From contig JAUNGU010000003.1 in assembly GCA_030524315.1 (NCBI GenBank), positions 1 through 57,036 of the forward strand: a stretch of DNA of 57,036 bases, given 5' to 3'. The position numbers were made by a program, and so were the translations under genes. The DNA is from Peptococcaceae bacterium (GTDB lineage: Bacteria > Bacillota > Peptococcia > Peptococcales > Peptococcaceae). The notes under the pieces were generated by a model. The model searched no databases. It worked only from the letters and a program-made list of their open reading frames with translations, and was not told the DNA's origin. This document shows positions 25,967-41,964 of this stretch, one piece after another (within the stretch, counting starts at the first letter, position 1; the number at the start of each line of letters is the position of its first letter).

Positions 25967-26058
25967 GCGTGTGGCGGAAAAATCATTGTCAGGTGGCGCA
26001 TTTTTCGCGGAAAAATGTTGCCATCACAACAATTTGCTATCGATAAAAAGTTCGGGTG

Positions 26059-26067
26059 TGCTATAAT
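26059..26067 (+). promoter_or_regulatory. Extended -10 promoter of the MoxR-VWA operon
   Basis: TGCTATAAT: a perfect -10 with the TG extension. No good -35 hexamer is present at 17 bp. It lies 50 bp before the ATPase gene. Confidence 0.6.
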
Positions 26068-26117: not shown

Positions 26118-27035
26118 ATGATGACGATTGAAGAGATTCGCGAGGGGCTCTGGGTGGCGGATTATATTGCGAGCACCGAAATTTGCTACGTTGTTTTTGA
26201 GGCGCTGGTGTTGAACAAGCCGATTCTCATTGAGGGCGATCCAGGCGTGGGTAAGACGTCGCTGGCCAAGGCGGTGGCGCGGATGCTGGAGCTGCCTTTT
26301 TTGCGGCTGCAAATGTATGATGGCCTCACCAAGGAGGATATTTTGTACGACTATGATTACCAGCGCCAGCTCCTGACGCTGGAAGCTGTCAAGCCGAAAA
26401 TCACAGAGAAGATCCAGGATCTTGATGTGAATGCAGCGATTCGTGCCGTGGCCTCGGATGTGGATTTTTACGGGCGGGAATTTTTGATTCCGCGGCCGAT
26501 TTTGAAAACCATCGACGGCAGCGGCCGCAAGCTCTTGCTCATTGACGAAATCGACAAGGCGTCCGAAGAAATTGAGTACATGCTCTACGAATACCTGGAG
26601 AATTATCAGATCAATATTCCTCAGTATGGCGCGATCCAGTGCCCCGAGGACCAGAAGCCGCTGGTGTTTCTGACCTCTAACGGCTACCGCGAGCTCTCCG
26701 GCGCCATGAAGCGCCGCTGTGGCTACCTCTACATCAAGAAAAAGACGCGCCAGGAGATTGTCGAGATTCTCAAGCGTCAGTGTCTTGCCAGCGACCAGGT
26801 GGCAGAAGGGGTCGCGGCCTGTGTGGTAGCCCTTCAGGAGAAGGATCTCAAGCATCCCGTGTCTGTGGCCGAGGCCATTGATTGGACGCATTTTCTCAGA
26901 GACCACGCCACCCAGGACATGGTGGCGCAGTCCATTGGCCTTTTGGCCAAGGATCGGCGGGATATGGAGACGATCCGCACAGTGGTAGAGGCGCATGTGG
27001 CAGAATTGGCAGGCGAACACGCAGAAGAGACATGA
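26118..27035 (+). CDS. MoxR-family AAA+ ATPase
   Basis: A 305-residue AAA+ protein. Walker A GDPGVGKTS (40-48), Walker B LLLIDEIDKA (D143, E144), sensor 1 FLTSNG (N188) and the arginine region MKRRCGYLYI identify the MoxR branch. MoxR ATPases act as chaperones that remodel or activate a partner, very often together with a VWA-domain protein encoded next door, as is the case here. AGGAGGAG precedes the ATG. The next gene begins 13 bp downstream. Confidence 0.92.
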   Translation: MMTIEEIREGLWVADYIASTEICYVVFEALVLNKPILIEGDPGVGKTSLAKAVARMLELPFLRLQMYDGLTKEDILYDYDYQRQLLTLEAVKPKITEKIQDLDVNAAIRAVASDVDFYGREFLIPRPILKTIDGSGRKLLLIDEIDKASEEIEYMLYEYLENYQINIPQYGAIQCPEDQKPLVFLTSNGYRELSGAMKRRCGYLYIKKKTRQEIVEILKRQCLASDQVAEGVAACVVALQEKDLKHPVSVAEAIDWTHFLRDHATQDMVAQSIGLLAKDRRDMETIRTVVEAHVAELAGEHAEET

Positions 27036-27048
27036 TAGGGAGGCGGCC

Positions 27049-28584
27049 ATGGCTGAGAAACCGTTGCTCGAAGCAGAATCGTCCTATCTCTATGAATTTA
27101 TTTTTGAAATCTGTGGTTACTTTTCAAGCTGTGGCTTTATTGCCTGTGATCCGGCAGAGGTGTTTGTGGTGGCGCGGGCCTTAGTGGCGGCTCAGGGGCA
27201 GGTGAATGTGCGGGCCTTGTTGATGAATCTGTTGGTGCATGATGAGGCGGAACGGGCGGCCGCCGGCAAAATTTTTCGCGAGTTTACCCAGCTTTACTAC
27301 CATAAGGAACATTTGCGACAGGCCTATGCAGACAAGCAGCAACGCATGAACGGCCGCCTTGAGCGCTTATTGGCGCAGCACGCCGCCCTTGAGGCGGAGG
27401 GCTTTGCGGCTGTTTGCCGCGGGCGGCTTGAGCAGGCGCGCGCCCTTGAGGCGGCACAACAGGACGTGGCCCATCTCGCAGATTGCTTGGCGGGATTGGT
27501 GTATTTGCTAAGCTTTGTGGTTTACGTGCAAAGGGGTGAACCGGTCTCCCACGAGCGCTTGACCCAAGAGGTTAAGATCAGCGGGGCGCGGGCCATGGCC
27601 TTCGACAATTACCAGGCGCTTTTGGAAAGCATCAAGGCGCGCAGCAGGATGTTGCAAGCCTTGGAAGGGGACGGCGGCTCTCTTGAAGCGAAACAGGCGC
27701 GCATCGCGCGGGAAATTGAGCGGCAGAGGGGGCGCATCAAGGCTGCCGAGGATGCCTTTGGCCAGACCATCGAAAAGCACGCCAGCGTCATTCATCGCGA
27801 TTTCTTTGATCCGGAGACGGCAAAAAATGCTGTCCACAGCCTCTATGCAGGTGAGCCGATTCTGCAGACGCGGTTTGACAAGCTTTCGACGAAGGATAAG
27901 GCAAAGATTTACGAATACATTCGCGACAATGCCCGAAAATTTCGCACGCGTTTGGCACGTCGGCTGCGTGGCAATCAGCGCAAGCGTCTGGATCTGCCAA
28001 ACACCATCAAGCAGAGCTGCCAAACAGGCGGCGTCCCGCTGCGACTCGTTTACGAAAAGCCTGCACGCAACAAAACCAACCTGGTGCTCATCCTGGACAT
28101 GTCGGGCTCCTGTAGCGCGGCGTCAGAATTGATGTTGGTTTTTATGCATGCGATGAAGAGCGCCTTTCCTGGTGGCTGTCAAACCTTTGCCTTTACCAAC
28201 AGGCTCTTTGATTTGGCGCCGTTTTTTGAGGAAACGGATGCGTCGCAGGTGGTGCAAGCGGTGCTGGCGCACATTCCTAGGGCAGGGGCGTATTCCAATT
28301 ATTACATTCCTTTTAGAACGTTATATGAGTCGCATTTCGGCGTCATCAACAGGGATTCCATCGTGTATTTTATTGGCGATGCACGCAACAACAAGCATCC
28401 TACCGGGGAAGATTACGTGAAGGCCATCGCCAGAAAAGCCAAGCGCGCCTATTGGATGAACACCGAGCCGATGCAAAAATGGAACAAGGGGGATTCGATC
28501 ATGGCCGTCTATGCGCGGTATATGGACCGTGTTGGCAAGGTCGAGACCCCGGCAGAGCTCCTGGCCTTTTTGGAGGAGGGGTGA
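27049..28584 (+). CDS. CoxE-like VWA-domain protein, MoxR partner
   Basis: A 511-residue protein. The N-terminal 330 residues are helical, with a charged, probably coiled-coil stretch at about 95-260. The C-terminal part is a von Willebrand A domain with a complete MIDAS start: LVLILDMSGSC (D350, S352, S354), then FAFTNRLFDL and DSIVYFIGDARNN. It resembles the CoxE-like group that pairs with MoxR ATPases. The ORF is open upstream, but ATG 27049 follows GGGAGGCGG, which fixes the start. It ends two bases before the third gene. The pair should bind metal and a client protein; the client is not known. Confidence 0.85.
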   Translation: MAEKPLLEAESSYLYEFIFEICGYFSSCGFIACDPAEVFVVARALVAAQGQVNVRALLMNLLVHDEAERAAAGKIFREFTQLYYHKEHLRQAYADKQQRMNGRLERLLAQHAALEAEGFAAVCRGRLEQARALEAAQQDVAHLADCLAGLVYLLSFVVYVQRGEPVSHERLTQEVKISGARAMAFDNYQALLESIKARSRMLQALEGDGGSLEAKQARIAREIERQRGRIKAAEDAFGQTIEKHASVIHRDFFDPETAKNAVHSLYAGEPILQTRFDKLSTKDKAKIYEYIRDNARKFRTRLARRLRGNQRKRLDLPNTIKQSCQTGGVPLRLVYEKPARNKTNLVLILDMSGSCSAASELMLVFMHAMKSAFPGGCQTFAFTNRLFDLAPFFEETDASQVVQAVLAHIPRAGAYSNYYIPFRTLYESHFGVINRDSIVYFIGDARNNKHPTGEDYVKAIARKAKRAYWMNTEPMQKWNKGDSIMAVYARYMDRVGKVETPAELLAFLEEG

Positions 28585-28586
28585 GG

Positions 28587-30188
28587 ATGGCAAAAAAGAA
28601 AAACAAACGGCGAGAGGCGACGCCCAAGGAGATCCAACGGGCGCAAAAAATTGCTGCTGCCAATGGCTATGACTTCTTGAACCATTTGCCGAAAGGCAGG
28701 TATTTGGTGGATGTCGGCGGCACGCTCTCTTTTTATGCCGACGGCCATGAAACCTATCAGCTGAGTGCGGGTGGTGCATTCAAACCGACGGCCCATTTGC
28801 ATAAAATCATCATGCCCCAGCAGCTGCGATTGAATGACAGCTTCCAGGATTTTTTGGACGGGCTACCCCCGGGCGCTGGGCCGCTTGTAGATGCGGATCT
28901 TGTCATCAAGGGCCTTGGCACAGAAGCGGTGGCTGTGGAATTTGTGCCAAGGCTGGCGCCCCTTTCGGGCATCACTGCGAGGCAGGTGGCGCTTTCCTTT
29001 GATAAGGTGTTCAGCCTGGCAGAGCTGTGTGAGACCATCCAAGCTGCTATGGATGCGCCGCGCATCCCTGTGGACGTGCAGCCATTGACCATTGTCCGAA
29101 TACAGGCGGCGCTCAAGGCGTATTTGTGTCGTGCCAAGGCGCTGATCGTGGATGAAGAGCTGTTGGCGTGCATCAGCGACAAGGCGCTGTTTGAGCTGGC
29201 GTGGCTATATCGCAACAATGACAAGCTGGCAGAAGTCCTGTATCCGCCGGGGGATTTCCAGCTGCAGCGAGACGTCGATCGGCTGCGTTTTAGATGTCAC
29301 AAGACGGTTTTCTATTGCAATCCCGATGGCACCAGGGTGCATTGCACAGTGCTCGCAGAGGAGTGTATTCGCGCCCGTTTTCTGCAAGAGCACCGCGATG
29401 AGCTCAAGGCGCTGGTTGCTCAGGCTCGGGCCATGAAGGTCAGGGTGGGCTTCCATCATCGCCATCTCAGGCTCAAAGGCTTGACGCCCCTTGATGCACC
29501 GCAAAATCAGAAATTCTATTACGAAGATTTTTCGCTGGAGGCTGTCAAAACCTGGCTCATTGCGCTGATGCAGGCGCGCGAGAAAAAGGCGGCGCATCTG
29601 GCGCTGGTGGAGGCCCAGTATCAGAGCCCCCATTATGGGCAGCTTCTGCCCCTGGCGATTTTGAAGCTCATCGGTGCCAACAGACCATTGACGGCCAATA
29701 CGATCATCAACCATTTGCGAGGGATTTCTCGCAAGCAGGCGAAACACCTTCAACCAGTGGCAGAAAGTGGCAAGCTCCATTTGCTGACGCCACAGGAAAT
29801 AGCGAGAGAGATTGAGGCGCTGCGCGCAGCTGGCTTGCTTGCACAAACGCTTGCGCCTCAGGGCTATCATTATCTGTCGCTCACAGAAAAAGGCCAGTGT
29901 CTTTTGGAATGCAAATATCGCGGACTGTTAGAACGCAGCAGCCAGGCGCTGACAGATTGGGATTGGCGGCATGGCTTAAGTGAAGGGCGCGTGCCGATAG
30001 AATCGCCAGCAGATTTTTTGGAACGCAAGTCCTTTGTGGTGCTGCATCCATCGCAGGTACAGCAGATGGCCAAGCGCTTTGCGACCAGGTGGCAGGATTA
30101 TCTCGCCTTGCGCCATGCTGTGGCAGCACCTGGCACAGAAAAAGCCTACTGGCGCTACGTGCAGCAGCTGTTTGCGTCGGCGCGATGA
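28587..30188 (+). CDS. Unrecognised 533-residue protein in the MoxR-VWA operon
   Basis: I do not recognise this protein. It begins with a lysine/arginine-rich tail (MAKKKNKRRE), followed by a mixed region without clear catalytic motifs; a cysteine/histidine pattern suggesting metal is not evident. At about 400-475 the sequence reads like a winged helix (TANTIINHLRG...EIEALRAAGLLAQTL...YHYLSLTEKGQCLLE), somewhat reminiscent of the RQC domain of RecQ helicases; that resemblance is weak and by eye only. No signal peptide or membrane segment. GAGGGGTGAGG before the ATG and only two bases after the VWA gene mean strict cotranscription, so it is probably the client or effector of the MoxR-VWA pair. 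Confidence 0.7.
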   Translation: MAKKKNKRREATPKEIQRAQKIAAANGYDFLNHLPKGRYLVDVGGTLSFYADGHETYQLSAGGAFKPTAHLHKIIMPQQLRLNDSFQDFLDGLPPGAGPLVDADLVIKGLGTEAVAVEFVPRLAPLSGITARQVALSFDKVFSLAELCETIQAAMDAPRIPVDVQPLTIVRIQAALKAYLCRAKALIVDEELLACISDKALFELAWLYRNNDKLAEVLYPPGDFQLQRDVDRLRFRCHKTVFYCNPDGTRVHCTVLAEECIRARFLQEHRDELKALVAQARAMKVRVGFHHRHLRLKGLTPLDAPQNQKFYYEDFSLEAVKTWLIALMQAREKKAAHLALVEAQYQSPHYGQLLPLAILKLIGANRPLTANTIINHLRGISRKQAKHLQPVAESGKLHLLTPQEIAREIEALRAAGLLAQTLAPQGYHYLSLTEKGQCLLECKYRGLLERSSQALTDWDWRHGLSEGRVPIESPADFLERKSFVVLHPSQVQQMAKRFATRWQDYLALRHAVAAPGTEKAYWRYVQQLFASAR

Positions 30189-38868: not shown

Positions 38869-39117
38869 ATGGCAAGTGAAATTAAAATTTGTATGGGCAG
38901 CGCCTGTCATATCAAGGGCGCACCAGGCTTGGTGCAAGCCTTTCAAAATGAAATTGAAAAACGTGGTGTCGGTGAAGAGGTCAAGCTCATGGGCTGCTTT
39001 TGCAAAAAGCAGTGTCACCAAGGCATCAATGTAGAGGTTAACAATGTCACCTACGGACACGTCACCCCAGAGGAAGTGTCCCATTTGGTGGACATTGCTT
39101 TGGGGGTAGTAAAATGA
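38869..39117 (+). CDS. Small [2Fe-2S] thioredoxin-like ferredoxin (NuoE-like)
   Basis: An 82-residue protein of the (2Fe-2S) ferredoxin domain family: ICMGSACHIKG with C8-x4-C13, and GCFCKKQCHQG with C43, C45 and C49. C45-x3-C49 matches the second half of the cluster motif, leaving C43 extra. It overlaps the sensor hydrogenase gene by four bases (ATGA), so the two are translationally coupled. It probably passes electrons to or from the sensor protein. The leader upstream (38721-38868) is AT-rich, with no promoter I would commit to. Confidence 0.85.
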   Translation: MASEIKICMGSACHIKGAPGLVQAFQNEIEKRGVGEEVKLMGCFCKKQCHQGINVEVNNVTYGHVTPEEVSHLVDIALGVVK

Positions 39118-40817
39118 AGCATTTCCCGTTTCCGATTGTCAACAAGGACAATTCGAATTGTTTAGACTGTTACCGTTGTCTGCGCAAATGCCCGCTGGAT
39201 GCCATTGAATTTTCCACGGGCCGTGCGCGCATTATCACAGAGTCCTGTGTCGTCTGTGGCCAATGCATCAAGGAATGCCCACAAAAAACCAAGCGCATCA
39301 TCAGCGACATGGACTTTGTCGTCAAGGCCCTCAAGGAGGGCAAGCCGCTGATTTTGAGTCTGGGCGAGGTGGCGCTCATCACCTCAAAAATGTCTATTGC
39401 CGAGCTGGCTGATAAGGCCTATAGCATCGGCTTTGATTATATTGAAGAGATGGATATTCTCGAGGAAGACGTCATCCGCGAGGTCAAGGCCGTGGTGCGC
39501 AGCAGCAATGAGCTGGTGCTGACGAGTCACTGCCCGGTGGTGGTCAATCTCGTCGAGCAGCATTATCCACAGTGGCTCGACAATCTTTTGCCGATCACGA
39601 GCCTGGCGTCGATGCATGCCAAGGATCTCAAAAAGCGCTATCCGGATCACATGGTGGTGCACGCCTCCGTCTGCCCGGCGGAATTTTACAATCGGCAAAA
39701 CGATGAGGACATTGATTTTCTCATCACGCTTTCTGAGCTTGAGCGTATCATTCGCTACAATCCGGCGGTGCGCAATACCGACGATGCCAAGGAACCCTAC
39801 TACATCGAATATAGCGGCGGCTACGGCTTTTCCATTGTCGGCAATGTGTCCAGCCGCCTCATCGAAGAAGGCGTCGTCGATTACAACGAAATCGAGTGGT
39901 ACTCGGGCTTGGACACCTGCATCGACATTCTTAAATCCAAGGACGAGCGCCTCAACGAGGAGGTCGAATTCCTCGAGCTCATGGCCTGCAACAGTGGCTG
40001 CATCAGCAGCGTCGATGTCATGAGCCCGGATAGCCTCTTTGGCCGCTGCCTGAAAATCAAGCAGTACAACGCCGACCGCGTCTATCTGCCGACCTTCCAG
40101 ATGAACGTGCCCGTCTCCAAGGCCACCTTCATCAACAACAAATACGAGCCGCCACAGATGGATGCCCAGGCCGTGCGCAACGAAATGGACATCTGCTTCA
40201 AGGATACCGATGCGCGTCCGCTCAACTGCGGCGCCTGCGGCTACGATTCCTGCTACGCCAAGAGCGCAGCAGTGGTGCGTGGCGAGGCGGACCGCGAAAT
40301 GTGCATGAGCTACATGAAGGCCAAGGCCGAATCCCTGGCCAATTCTGTCGTCAACAATATTGCCAGCGGCATCATTATTTTCGACAAGGATTATACGATT
40401 TTGCAGCTCAATCCCTTCGTCAAGAAAATGTTCGACGTCTTCAAGCTCGACGTTGGCTCGCGGCTGAGCGATTATTTTGACGTGAGCTACATGCGCAAGG
40501 CCGTTGAAAAGCGCGAGGTCGTCCACAACGTCACGATTTCCTACAAGGACCTGGACATCTGGACCCAGCAGACGGTGCAGCCCCTGGACAGCGAAACCTA
40601 CGTGGCCTTCATTGTCGACATCACCGAGCGCGAAAAGCAGCGCGAGCAGTTCAACAACGTCAAGCGCGACCTCCTCGTCAACGCCACCCAGGTTATCGAC
40701 GACCAGATGCGCACCGCCCAGGAAATCGCCAGCCTCCTCGGCGAAACGACGGCGGCGACAAAGATTACGCTGCTCAAGCTGATCCAGGAATTTGAAAAAG
40801 AGAAGGAGTTGAGCTGA
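39114..40817 (+). CDS. Sensory-type [FeFe]-hydrogenase homologue (HydS / group C-like) with Fes and PAS domains
   Basis: A 567-residue multidomain protein: two [4Fe-4S] motifs (C16/19/22/26 and C45/48/51/55), a shortened H-domain, a Fes-type cluster motif (C372, C375, C380, C397), a PAS domain at about 405-505 and a C-terminal helix. The four H-cluster cysteines are kept (C140, C187, C292, C296). However the proton-relay cysteine is H139 (TSHCP), and in L2 the lysine is E190 and the glutamate N193 (SVCPAEFYN). So it may bind the cofactor but is unlikely to be an efficient catalyst. The layout matches group C, proposed H2 sensors. A phosphatase follows two bases later. Confidence 0.88.
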   Translation: MKHFPFPIVNKDNSNCLDCYRCLRKCPLDAIEFSTGRARIITESCVVCGQCIKECPQKTKRIISDMDFVVKALKEGKPLILSLGEVALITSKMSIAELADKAYSIGFDYIEEMDILEEDVIREVKAVVRSSNELVLTSHCPVVVNLVEQHYPQWLDNLLPITSLASMHAKDLKKRYPDHMVVHASVCPAEFYNRQNDEDIDFLITLSELERIIRYNPAVRNTDDAKEPYYIEYSGGYGFSIVGNVSSRLIEEGVVDYNEIEWYSGLDTCIDILKSKDERLNEEVEFLELMACNSGCISSVDVMSPDSLFGRCLKIKQYNADRVYLPTFQMNVPVSKATFINNKYEPPQMDAQAVRNEMDICFKDTDARPLNCGACGYDSCYAKSAAVVRGEADREMCMSYMKAKAESLANSVVNNIASGIIIFDKDYTILQLNPFVKKMFDVFKLDVGSRLSDYFDVSYMRKAVEKREVVHNVTISYKDLDIWTQQTVQPLDSETYVAFIVDITEREKQREQFNNVKRDLLVNATQVIDDQMRTAQEIASLLGETTAATKITLLKLIQEFEKEKELS

Positions 40818-40818
40818 T

Positions 40819-41964
40819 ATGGCTGCAATTATCGGAGAAGTCGCCATCGCTCAGCTCAAGCACCACGGCGAGGAGCTCTGTGGCGACACCGTCGAGATCA
40901 TCCGCAACCCCGGGGAGACGGTCGTCGTGCTCTCTGACGGGCTGGGCAGCGGCGTCAAGGCCAATATTTTGAGCTCTCTGACCGCCAAAATCTGCGCCCA
41001 GCTCATTGCCGCCGACGTCCCTATTGAGGACACGGTCGACACCCTCCTCAAGACCTTGCCGACCTGCGCCGATCGCGGCGTGGCCTACTCGACCTTTTCG
41101 ATCATGCGCCTCTACGACAACGGCGTCGCCTTCATGGTCGATTTTGACGGCTGCCCGATGATCCGCATCAGCGAGGATAAGAAAATTTCCGTCATCGAAA
41201 CCAATCCGTCTGAGGTCGAGGGCAAGACCATTCACGAGACCAACTTCCGCCTGCATGCGGGCGAGACGGTGGTCATCGTCAGCGATGGCGTCATTCAGGC
41301 GGGGCTCGGCGAGCTCCTGCCCTTCGGGCTGGGCATCGACGGCCTCGTCGACACCCTCGAGCGTTTCGTCGATCTCGACGACAACGTGCAGAGCATCGCC
41401 TGGCGCATCGTCAACATTTGCAAGAGCTACTACCTCGGTGAGCCGGGCGACGACACCACTGCCGTCGTCATGCGTCTCAAGGAGGAGCAGCGCATGGTCA
41501 TCATGACCGGGCCGCCGGTGCACATGGAGGACGACGCGCGCATGGTTTCGCGTTTCCAGTCGGAAGAAGGCATGAAAATCATCTGCGGCGGCACTACGGC
41601 GCAAATCTATGCCCGCGAAACCGGCAAGCAGATCCATTCGGATTTTCACTACGTCAACAAAAAAATCCCGCCGATTTCCTACATCGACGGCGTCGACCTC
41701 GTCACAGAGGGGATCATCACCCTCTCGGCCGTCAAGCGCATGCTCGATGAGCAGGAGCTGCAGACCGGCGAGGACGGGGCGACGCTTCTCATGAACAAAA
41801 TCCTTGCCAGCGACCACATCACCTTCCTTCAGGGCATGCAGCGCAACGTCGCCATGAAGGACAACCTGCCGTTGGATTTGGACCTGCGCGACGTCATTGT
41901 CGAAAAGCTCGCGACCAAGCTTCGCAGCATGGGGAAAATCGTCGAGATTGTGCGGTATGAGTAA
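40819..41964 (+). CDS. SpoIIE-family (PP2C-like) serine phosphatase
   Basis: A 381-residue protein. Metal-binding motifs of the SpoIIE/PP2C fold are present: GDTVEI, VVLSDGLGSG, VVIVSDGVIQ and EPGDDTTAVVM. The catalytic domain fills about 1-225; the C-terminal 150 residues are of unknown type and may be regulatory. SpoIIE phosphatases usually act on anti-sigma antagonists or other phosphoproteins. Direct coupling to the HydS-like sensor, with one base between the genes, suggests that hydrogenase state controls dephosphorylation. No kinase is encoded nearby. Last gene of its operon. Confidence 0.88.
   Translation: MAAIIGEVAIAQLKHHGEELCGDTVEIIRNPGETVVVLSDGLGSGVKANILSSLTAKICAQLIAADVPIEDTVDTLLKTLPTCADRGVAYSTFSIMRLYDNGVAFMVDFDGCPMIRISEDKKISVIETNPSEVEGKTIHETNFRLHAGETVVIVSDGVIQAGLGELLPFGLGIDGLVDTLERFVDLDDNVQSIAWRIVNICKSYYLGEPGDDTTAVVMRLKEEQRMVIMTGPPVHMEDDARMVSRFQSEEGMKIICGGTTAQIYARETGKQIHSDFHYVNKKIPPISYIDGVDLVTEGIITLSAVKRMLDEQELQTGEDGATLLMNKILASDHITFLQGMQRNVAMKDNLPLDLDLRDVIVEKLATKLRSMGKIVEIVRYE

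Follow-up and report, generated by a model that had tools for sequence, protein, structure and literature searches.

The 57,036-nucleotide stretch of Peptococcaceae DNA analyzed here (the window) carries a compact operon in which a MoxR-type AAA+ ATPase and a CoxE-type VWA protein are encoded directly upstream of an orphan, protein X. The sole recognizable part of X, on profile and model evidence, is a borderline winged helix resembling the RQC domain of RecQ helicases. We tentatively propose, partly by analogy with characterized pairs of this type, that the ATPase-VWA pair remodels X, a predicted RQC-like nucleic acid binder, in an accessory, laterally spread role. MoxR-VWA pairs that act with a third protein are known; what appears to be new is the orphan X as the partner, a view held with strong reservations because the third gene has been seen once.

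Layout of the operon and its ATPase-VWA pair

All three genes lie on the + strand, with the AAA+ gene at positions 26118-27035 (305 aa, CoxD/MadB-like), the VWA gene at 27049-28584 (511 aa from the ATG at 27049), and the X gene at 28587-30188 (533 aa, net charge +16, with a basic N-terminus). The three open reading frames and the intergenic gaps of 13 bp (AAA+/VWA) and 2 bp (VWA/X) given in the original prediction were confirmed, and codon usage favored the annotated frame in 3/3 genes. X has the lowest codon score of the three at 0.11 bits per codon, compared with −0.72 and −0.67 in the other forward frames, and its score is positive in each third of the frame (0.08, 0.21, and 0.07). The G+C content of the three genes (0.55 to 0.56, and 0.63 to 0.70 at third codon positions) is the same as that of host genes. 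A candidate extended −10 promoter is present at 26040-26067 on the + strand (10/12 matches; a TG precedes the second hexamer), as had been predicted. However, the region contains 7 promoter-like sites versus 3.5 ± 2.0 in shuffled sequences, and because this number is not clearly above chance, the promoter carries little weight. Cotranscription of the three genes, as claimed earlier, is suggested by their close spacing.

The upstream gene was predicted to encode a MoxR ATPase with intact Walker motifs, and both motifs are indeed intact, with Walker A (GDPGVGKT) at residue 40 and Walker B (LLLIDEIDKA) at residue 139. The protein matches AAA_5 (1.6e-12) and other AAA families in Pfam, and its best matches in the plasmid search are 38 to 39% identical and annotated as MoxR ATPase, one of them as CO dehydrogenase subunit D. 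The downstream protein matches VWA_CoxE (PF05762) at 3.4e-33 and 115.4 bits, above the cut-off of 26.4, and consists of a divergent N-terminal half (about residues 1 to 270) and a VWA domain (residues 297 to 503); the match stops at residue 503 of 511, leaving no effector domain C-terminal to it. The assignment of a MoxR and CoxE-type VWA pair is thus borne out by profiles and motifs. The best NCBIfam matches of the two proteins are MadB_ATPase for the ATPase (180.6 bits, cut-off 475) and MadC for the VWA protein (98.3 bits, far below the cut-off of 600), and no X was seen with distant MadB/C-like pairs; with both scores below the curated cut-offs, MadB/MadC equivalogs were rejected.

The metal ion-dependent adhesion site (MIDAS) of the VWA protein, predicted to be intact from D350, S352, and S354, is complete, including T379 and D444. 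In an alignment of the window protein with 20 of its 58 other protein search matches, S352, S354, T379, and D444 are kept in 21/21 rows and D350 in 20/21. That search returned 59 matches at E values up to 1, one of which was the query itself. Nineteen metagenome proteins (P0003-P0021), all from sources labeled lgn and ena, are 43 to 45% identical to the VWA protein over 97 to 99% of its length. Conservation is uneven along the chain: residues 271 to 511 are 51 to 62% identical to the 20 relatives (median, 60%), and residues 1 to 270 are 18 to 33% identical (median, 30%). In two matches, P0028 and P0037, AAA+ and VWA domains stand in one frame, which suggests from sequence that the two genes are adjacent in those sources as well; the one-frame joins are possibly deletions or assembly joins. 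At 163/218 positions (75%), the window ATPase is identical to the AAA+ part of P0028, the only relative for which this was measured.

Distribution and the clients of related pairs

The family to which the VWA protein belongs is sporadic. Among 46 genomes of the class, only the genome of origin has a member at E values up to 1e-30, the other 45 lacking one. In the phylum, 90/398 genomes have a match at 1e-10, with the own protein scoring 711 bits and the next 155.7, and the own draft genome contains a single VWA_CoxE match. A scan of 84,980 species genomes with two patterns, in which records near the own genome were possibly left out, yielded 28 VWA loci, all at 24 to 30% identity and none of them a member of the close family (P0003-P0022). 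Co-occurrence counts therefore come from distant relatives, as P0003-P0022 are known as proteins alone. An AAA+ gene is present at 22/28 of these loci. At least three of the six lacking it (L009, L019, and L025) start just before the VWA gene, so that the upstream gene lies off the contig. Together with the one-frame proteins P0028 and P0037, these counts argue that the ATPase and the VWA protein belong together. X, in contrast, was detected at 0/28 loci by phmmer comparison of their open reading frames, in which a highly divergent X would escape notice, and co-occurrence of all three genes was not seen at these distant loci. An AAA+ match at 1e-20 occurs in 2/46 genomes of the class, the own genome and G020, which has two copies (36 to 37%): one adjoins a distant VWA gene, with no detectable X, and the other lies at a contig end.

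The operon stands alone beside hydrogenase genes, as originally described. To its left lie an ABC ATPase, a LytTR response regulator, and a low-G+C helix-turn-helix (HTH) gene, and to its right a TM1266-like regulator, hydE (named from gene position and relatives rather than from a Pfam scan), hydG, hydF, and [FeFe]-hydrogenase genes.

Systems of comparable gene content have been described. The available text of PMC7159879 presents MoxR-vWA ternary conflict systems with a third local protein (VMAP, iSTAND, FtsH, or beta-propeller), and the window likewise has adjacent genes for a MoxR AAA+ protein, a VWA protein, and a third product. In the VMAP type, as set out there, the MoxR protein has an N-terminal extension with WxhapG and PsWRxa motifs, variable effector domains lie C-terminal to the VWA domain, and the third protein has VMAP-C. 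In contrast, the window ATPase, with Walker A starting at residue 40, has neither W....G nor P.WR, and the VWA match ends at 503 of 511. As for VMAP-C, full-length X has no match to a Pfam family. In the FtsH type, according to the same text, an active FtsH-type AAA+ domain is present in the third protein, whereas X has neither GxxxxGK[ST] nor a full-length Pfam match. Judged by these features (motifs, effector domain, and Walker A), the trio is not a VMAP or FtsH ternary system. The CoxD-CoxE pair, which the available portions of PMC3471820 and PMC4240915 connect to CO dehydrogenase maturation, has the same type of ATPase and a PF05762 VWA protein. The window differs in its extra orphan gene and in that no CO-dehydrogenase-type client was recognized among the window proteins scanned or found in the draft genome, where MoCoBD_2 (PF20256, CO-dehydrogenase/xanthine-dehydrogenase type) has no match at 87% completeness. 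A nonexhaustive literature search found no description of the three-gene set or of an RQC-type partner to a MoxR-VWA pair.

These comparisons raise the alternative that the pair serves a different client encoded elsewhere, in metal-cofactor insertion or complex assembly as for CoxDE, NorQD, or RavA-ViaA, with X a passenger or a minor accessory. We regard this as somewhat unlikely. Both proteins are closest to the CoxD/CoxE/MadB/MadC types, distant pairs occur without detectable X, and scanning the neighbors of a few distant loci turned up metal transport genes at two of them (feoB in L003 and a copper P-type ATPase in L028). Against it, the remaining neighbors scanned at distant loci share no client, no MoCoBD_2 protein was found in the 87% complete draft genome, and the adjoining hydrogenase maturation genes are also found in relatives that lack the operon.

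Protein X and its winged-helix segment

X was originally described as a protein that could not be placed, and the searches leave it so. Neither the whole protein (7997 candidates sharing most words scored) nor residues 345 to 450 (2008 candidates, E values up to 10) has a relative among 5.8 billion proteins; these searches require shared five-residue words, so that relatives below roughly 40 to 45% identity, by our estimate, may be missed. X occurs in 1/100 genomes of relatives, its own alone, and in 2/398 genomes of the phylum, the second being a 16.9-bit match with an in-frame stop that is taken as chance. It is absent from the plasmids, phages, and viral contigs searched, and comparison with a copy of the PDB returned nothing at E values up to 10. 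At full length, X matches nothing significant in NCBIfam, PHROGs, PADLOC, or Pfam, which holds VMAP models. Its sequence contains no Walker A motif (GxxxxGK[ST]) and, by profile, no helicase domain.

The earlier remark that a C-terminal segment of X recalls RQC domains holds at a borderline level. The segment (residues 359 to 441, positions 29661-29909, + strand) is a predicted RQC-like winged helix, based on a Pfam profile and a structure model. The RQC model (PF09382) scores 23.6 bits on the best-cut segment against a gathering cut-off of 23, and 20.5, 21.3, 21.9, and 22.8 bits on four other C-terminal segments, all below the cut-off; the E value on one segment is 8.7e-5. The alignment covers profile positions 14 to 98 of 114. 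RQC is not listed for full-length X, residues 1 to 451, or residues 101 to 533, and X is not listed at E values up to 0.001 when the model is run over the own genome. By sequence, the segment matches none of three RecQ proteins, and in the PDB copy it has four unrelated matches (E values of 0.055 to 1.2). A crude profile built from the three RecQ proteins scores full-length X at 6.9 bits and the segment at 9.5 bits, the latter a narrow margin over the best of 2000 segment shuffles (8.5 bits). The best of five single-sequence models of the segment is a winged helix (pLDDT of 67.5); the model of whole X (pLDDT of 42.5) offers no usable overall fold. Foldseek found no match to the segment model at E values up to 0.001, and the rows listed are mainly MarR/PadR regulators, not RecQ. 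The likeness of X to RecQ helicases is thus a borderline one confined to the winged-helix segment, with no helicase domain by profile; through this segment X is predicted to bind DNA or RNA.

The same fold could instead make X mainly a transcription factor with a PadR/MarR-kind winged helix, the ATPase-VWA pair timing its binding to a promoter. This is unlikely: on one and the same segment, RQC (4.8e-5) ranks above HTH_20 (0.0075) in Pfam, X is much longer than the listed regulators and would be left mostly unexplained, and the winged helix is a common fold. It is very unlikely that X is a recently arisen or decayed functionless frame beside a working pair, as its missing relatives and lowest codon score might indicate, given its 533 open codons, coding score positive in every third, start codon 2 bp past the VWA stop, and borderline recognizable domain.

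A possible remodeling machine

In the reading that we tentatively prefer, X would be a nucleic-acid-binding partner that is remodeled by an ATPase ring with the VWA protein bound to it. The two upstream proteins would form a complex, and the start of the X gene 2 bp further on makes X the prime candidate for its client. The available text of PMC13036017 describes how, in NorQ-NorD, the VWA protein reaches into the AAA+ ring with a finger and the linker to the N-terminal domain is stretched during turnover, which remodels the client, and that of PMC9976466 reports that NorD MIDAS mutants keep NorQ binding and lose client activity. We propose that the window pair works in a like manner, with an AAA+ ring and a VWA adaptor made up of an N-terminal part, a linker, and a MIDAS; the client of NorQ-NorD is nitric oxide reductase, and the likeness is one of working mode rather than tested kinship. 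By this analogy, the VWA protein would sit as a plug in the ATPase hexamer and grip the client at an acidic residue through its MIDAS, and the linker between the N-terminal half and the VWA domain would be pulled on by ATP hydrolysis. The outcome for X might be loading onto DNA or RNA, activation there, or removal.

The ATPase is the part closest to its relatives (75% identity to the single one compared, over 218 aa), followed by the VWA domain (about 60%), then the N-terminal half of the VWA protein (about 30%), and last by X, for which no relative was found, so that the parts predicted to contact the client diverge fastest. Such a gradient is expected when the partner contacted by the outer parts keeps changing. 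Together with the sporadic presence of the family, it suggests an accessory, laterally spread function, in stress or defense, rather than a housekeeping one. Counting against remodeling of X by the pair, X is found beside the pair in this one genome alone and could be a late, unrelated passenger.

The proposed link to defense found no support. For neither the VWA protein nor X did PADLOC list a family at E values up to 1, the weak matches of the ATPase were read as generic ATPase matches, and the 2/10 other window proteins matched at 1e-5 (the ABC ATPase and the HTH protein) were read as generic too. A defense role of the operon is possible but unsupported, and the trio may represent an unrecorded kind of bacterial stress or defense system. 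More specifically, and improbably in our estimate, it could be a further MoxR-VWA ternary class in which a conserved engine drives a fast-changing RQC-type effector against invading or damaged nucleic acid. The engine in that case would be one that is common in metagenomes and was not found in species-representative genomes.

The close relatives P0003-P0022, which include single clusters of up to 1489 sequences, have no source-given name among the matches listed and were not found in the 84,980 species genomes, so that a common engine may escape annotation. MoxR-VWA machines are widespread, yet the list of their known clients is short. A compact operon that encodes a lone candidate client alongside the pair, seemingly with a nucleic-acid-binding fold, would allow the question of what such a machine acts on to be tested directly.

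RQC model across genomes

Across the 20 genomes searched with the RQC model (Pfam PF09382), which describes the winged-helix domain that residues 359 to 441 of the orphan protein X (28587 to 30188) recall at a borderline level, matches were obtained in 3. The draft genome from which the window derives was among the 20 and not among the 3, with zero matches to the model at E values up to 0.001.

Neighboring genes and other loci

To the right of the operon, adjacent to the hydrogenase genes, the interval 39114 to 41964 of the window encodes a protein that combines an [FeFe]-hydrogenase C-domain with a putative Fe-S domain, and its gene is directly followed by one for a SpoIIE-type phosphatase. 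At the locus of the relative G005 that carries a copy of hydE, two TM1266-like matches (34% and 56%) are located upstream of that copy, as is an ABC ATPase match. Elsewhere in the window, between 9387 and 13130, long open reading frames overlap on opposite strands, one of 1,179 aa on the plus strand and two of 807 and 417 aa on the minus strand; a Pfam scan confined to the two minus-strand frames identified no families at 1e-5.

Distribution of the VWA protein family

The close metagenomic relatives of the VWA protein (27049 to 28584), P0003 to P0022, were plentiful in the protein search among assemblies of the lgn and ena source collections, where single clusters comprised up to 1,489 sequences. 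When 84,980 species genomes were scanned with two patterns, no member of the VWA family above 30% identity was recovered. The close family may be located on DNA that is strain-variable or poorly binned.
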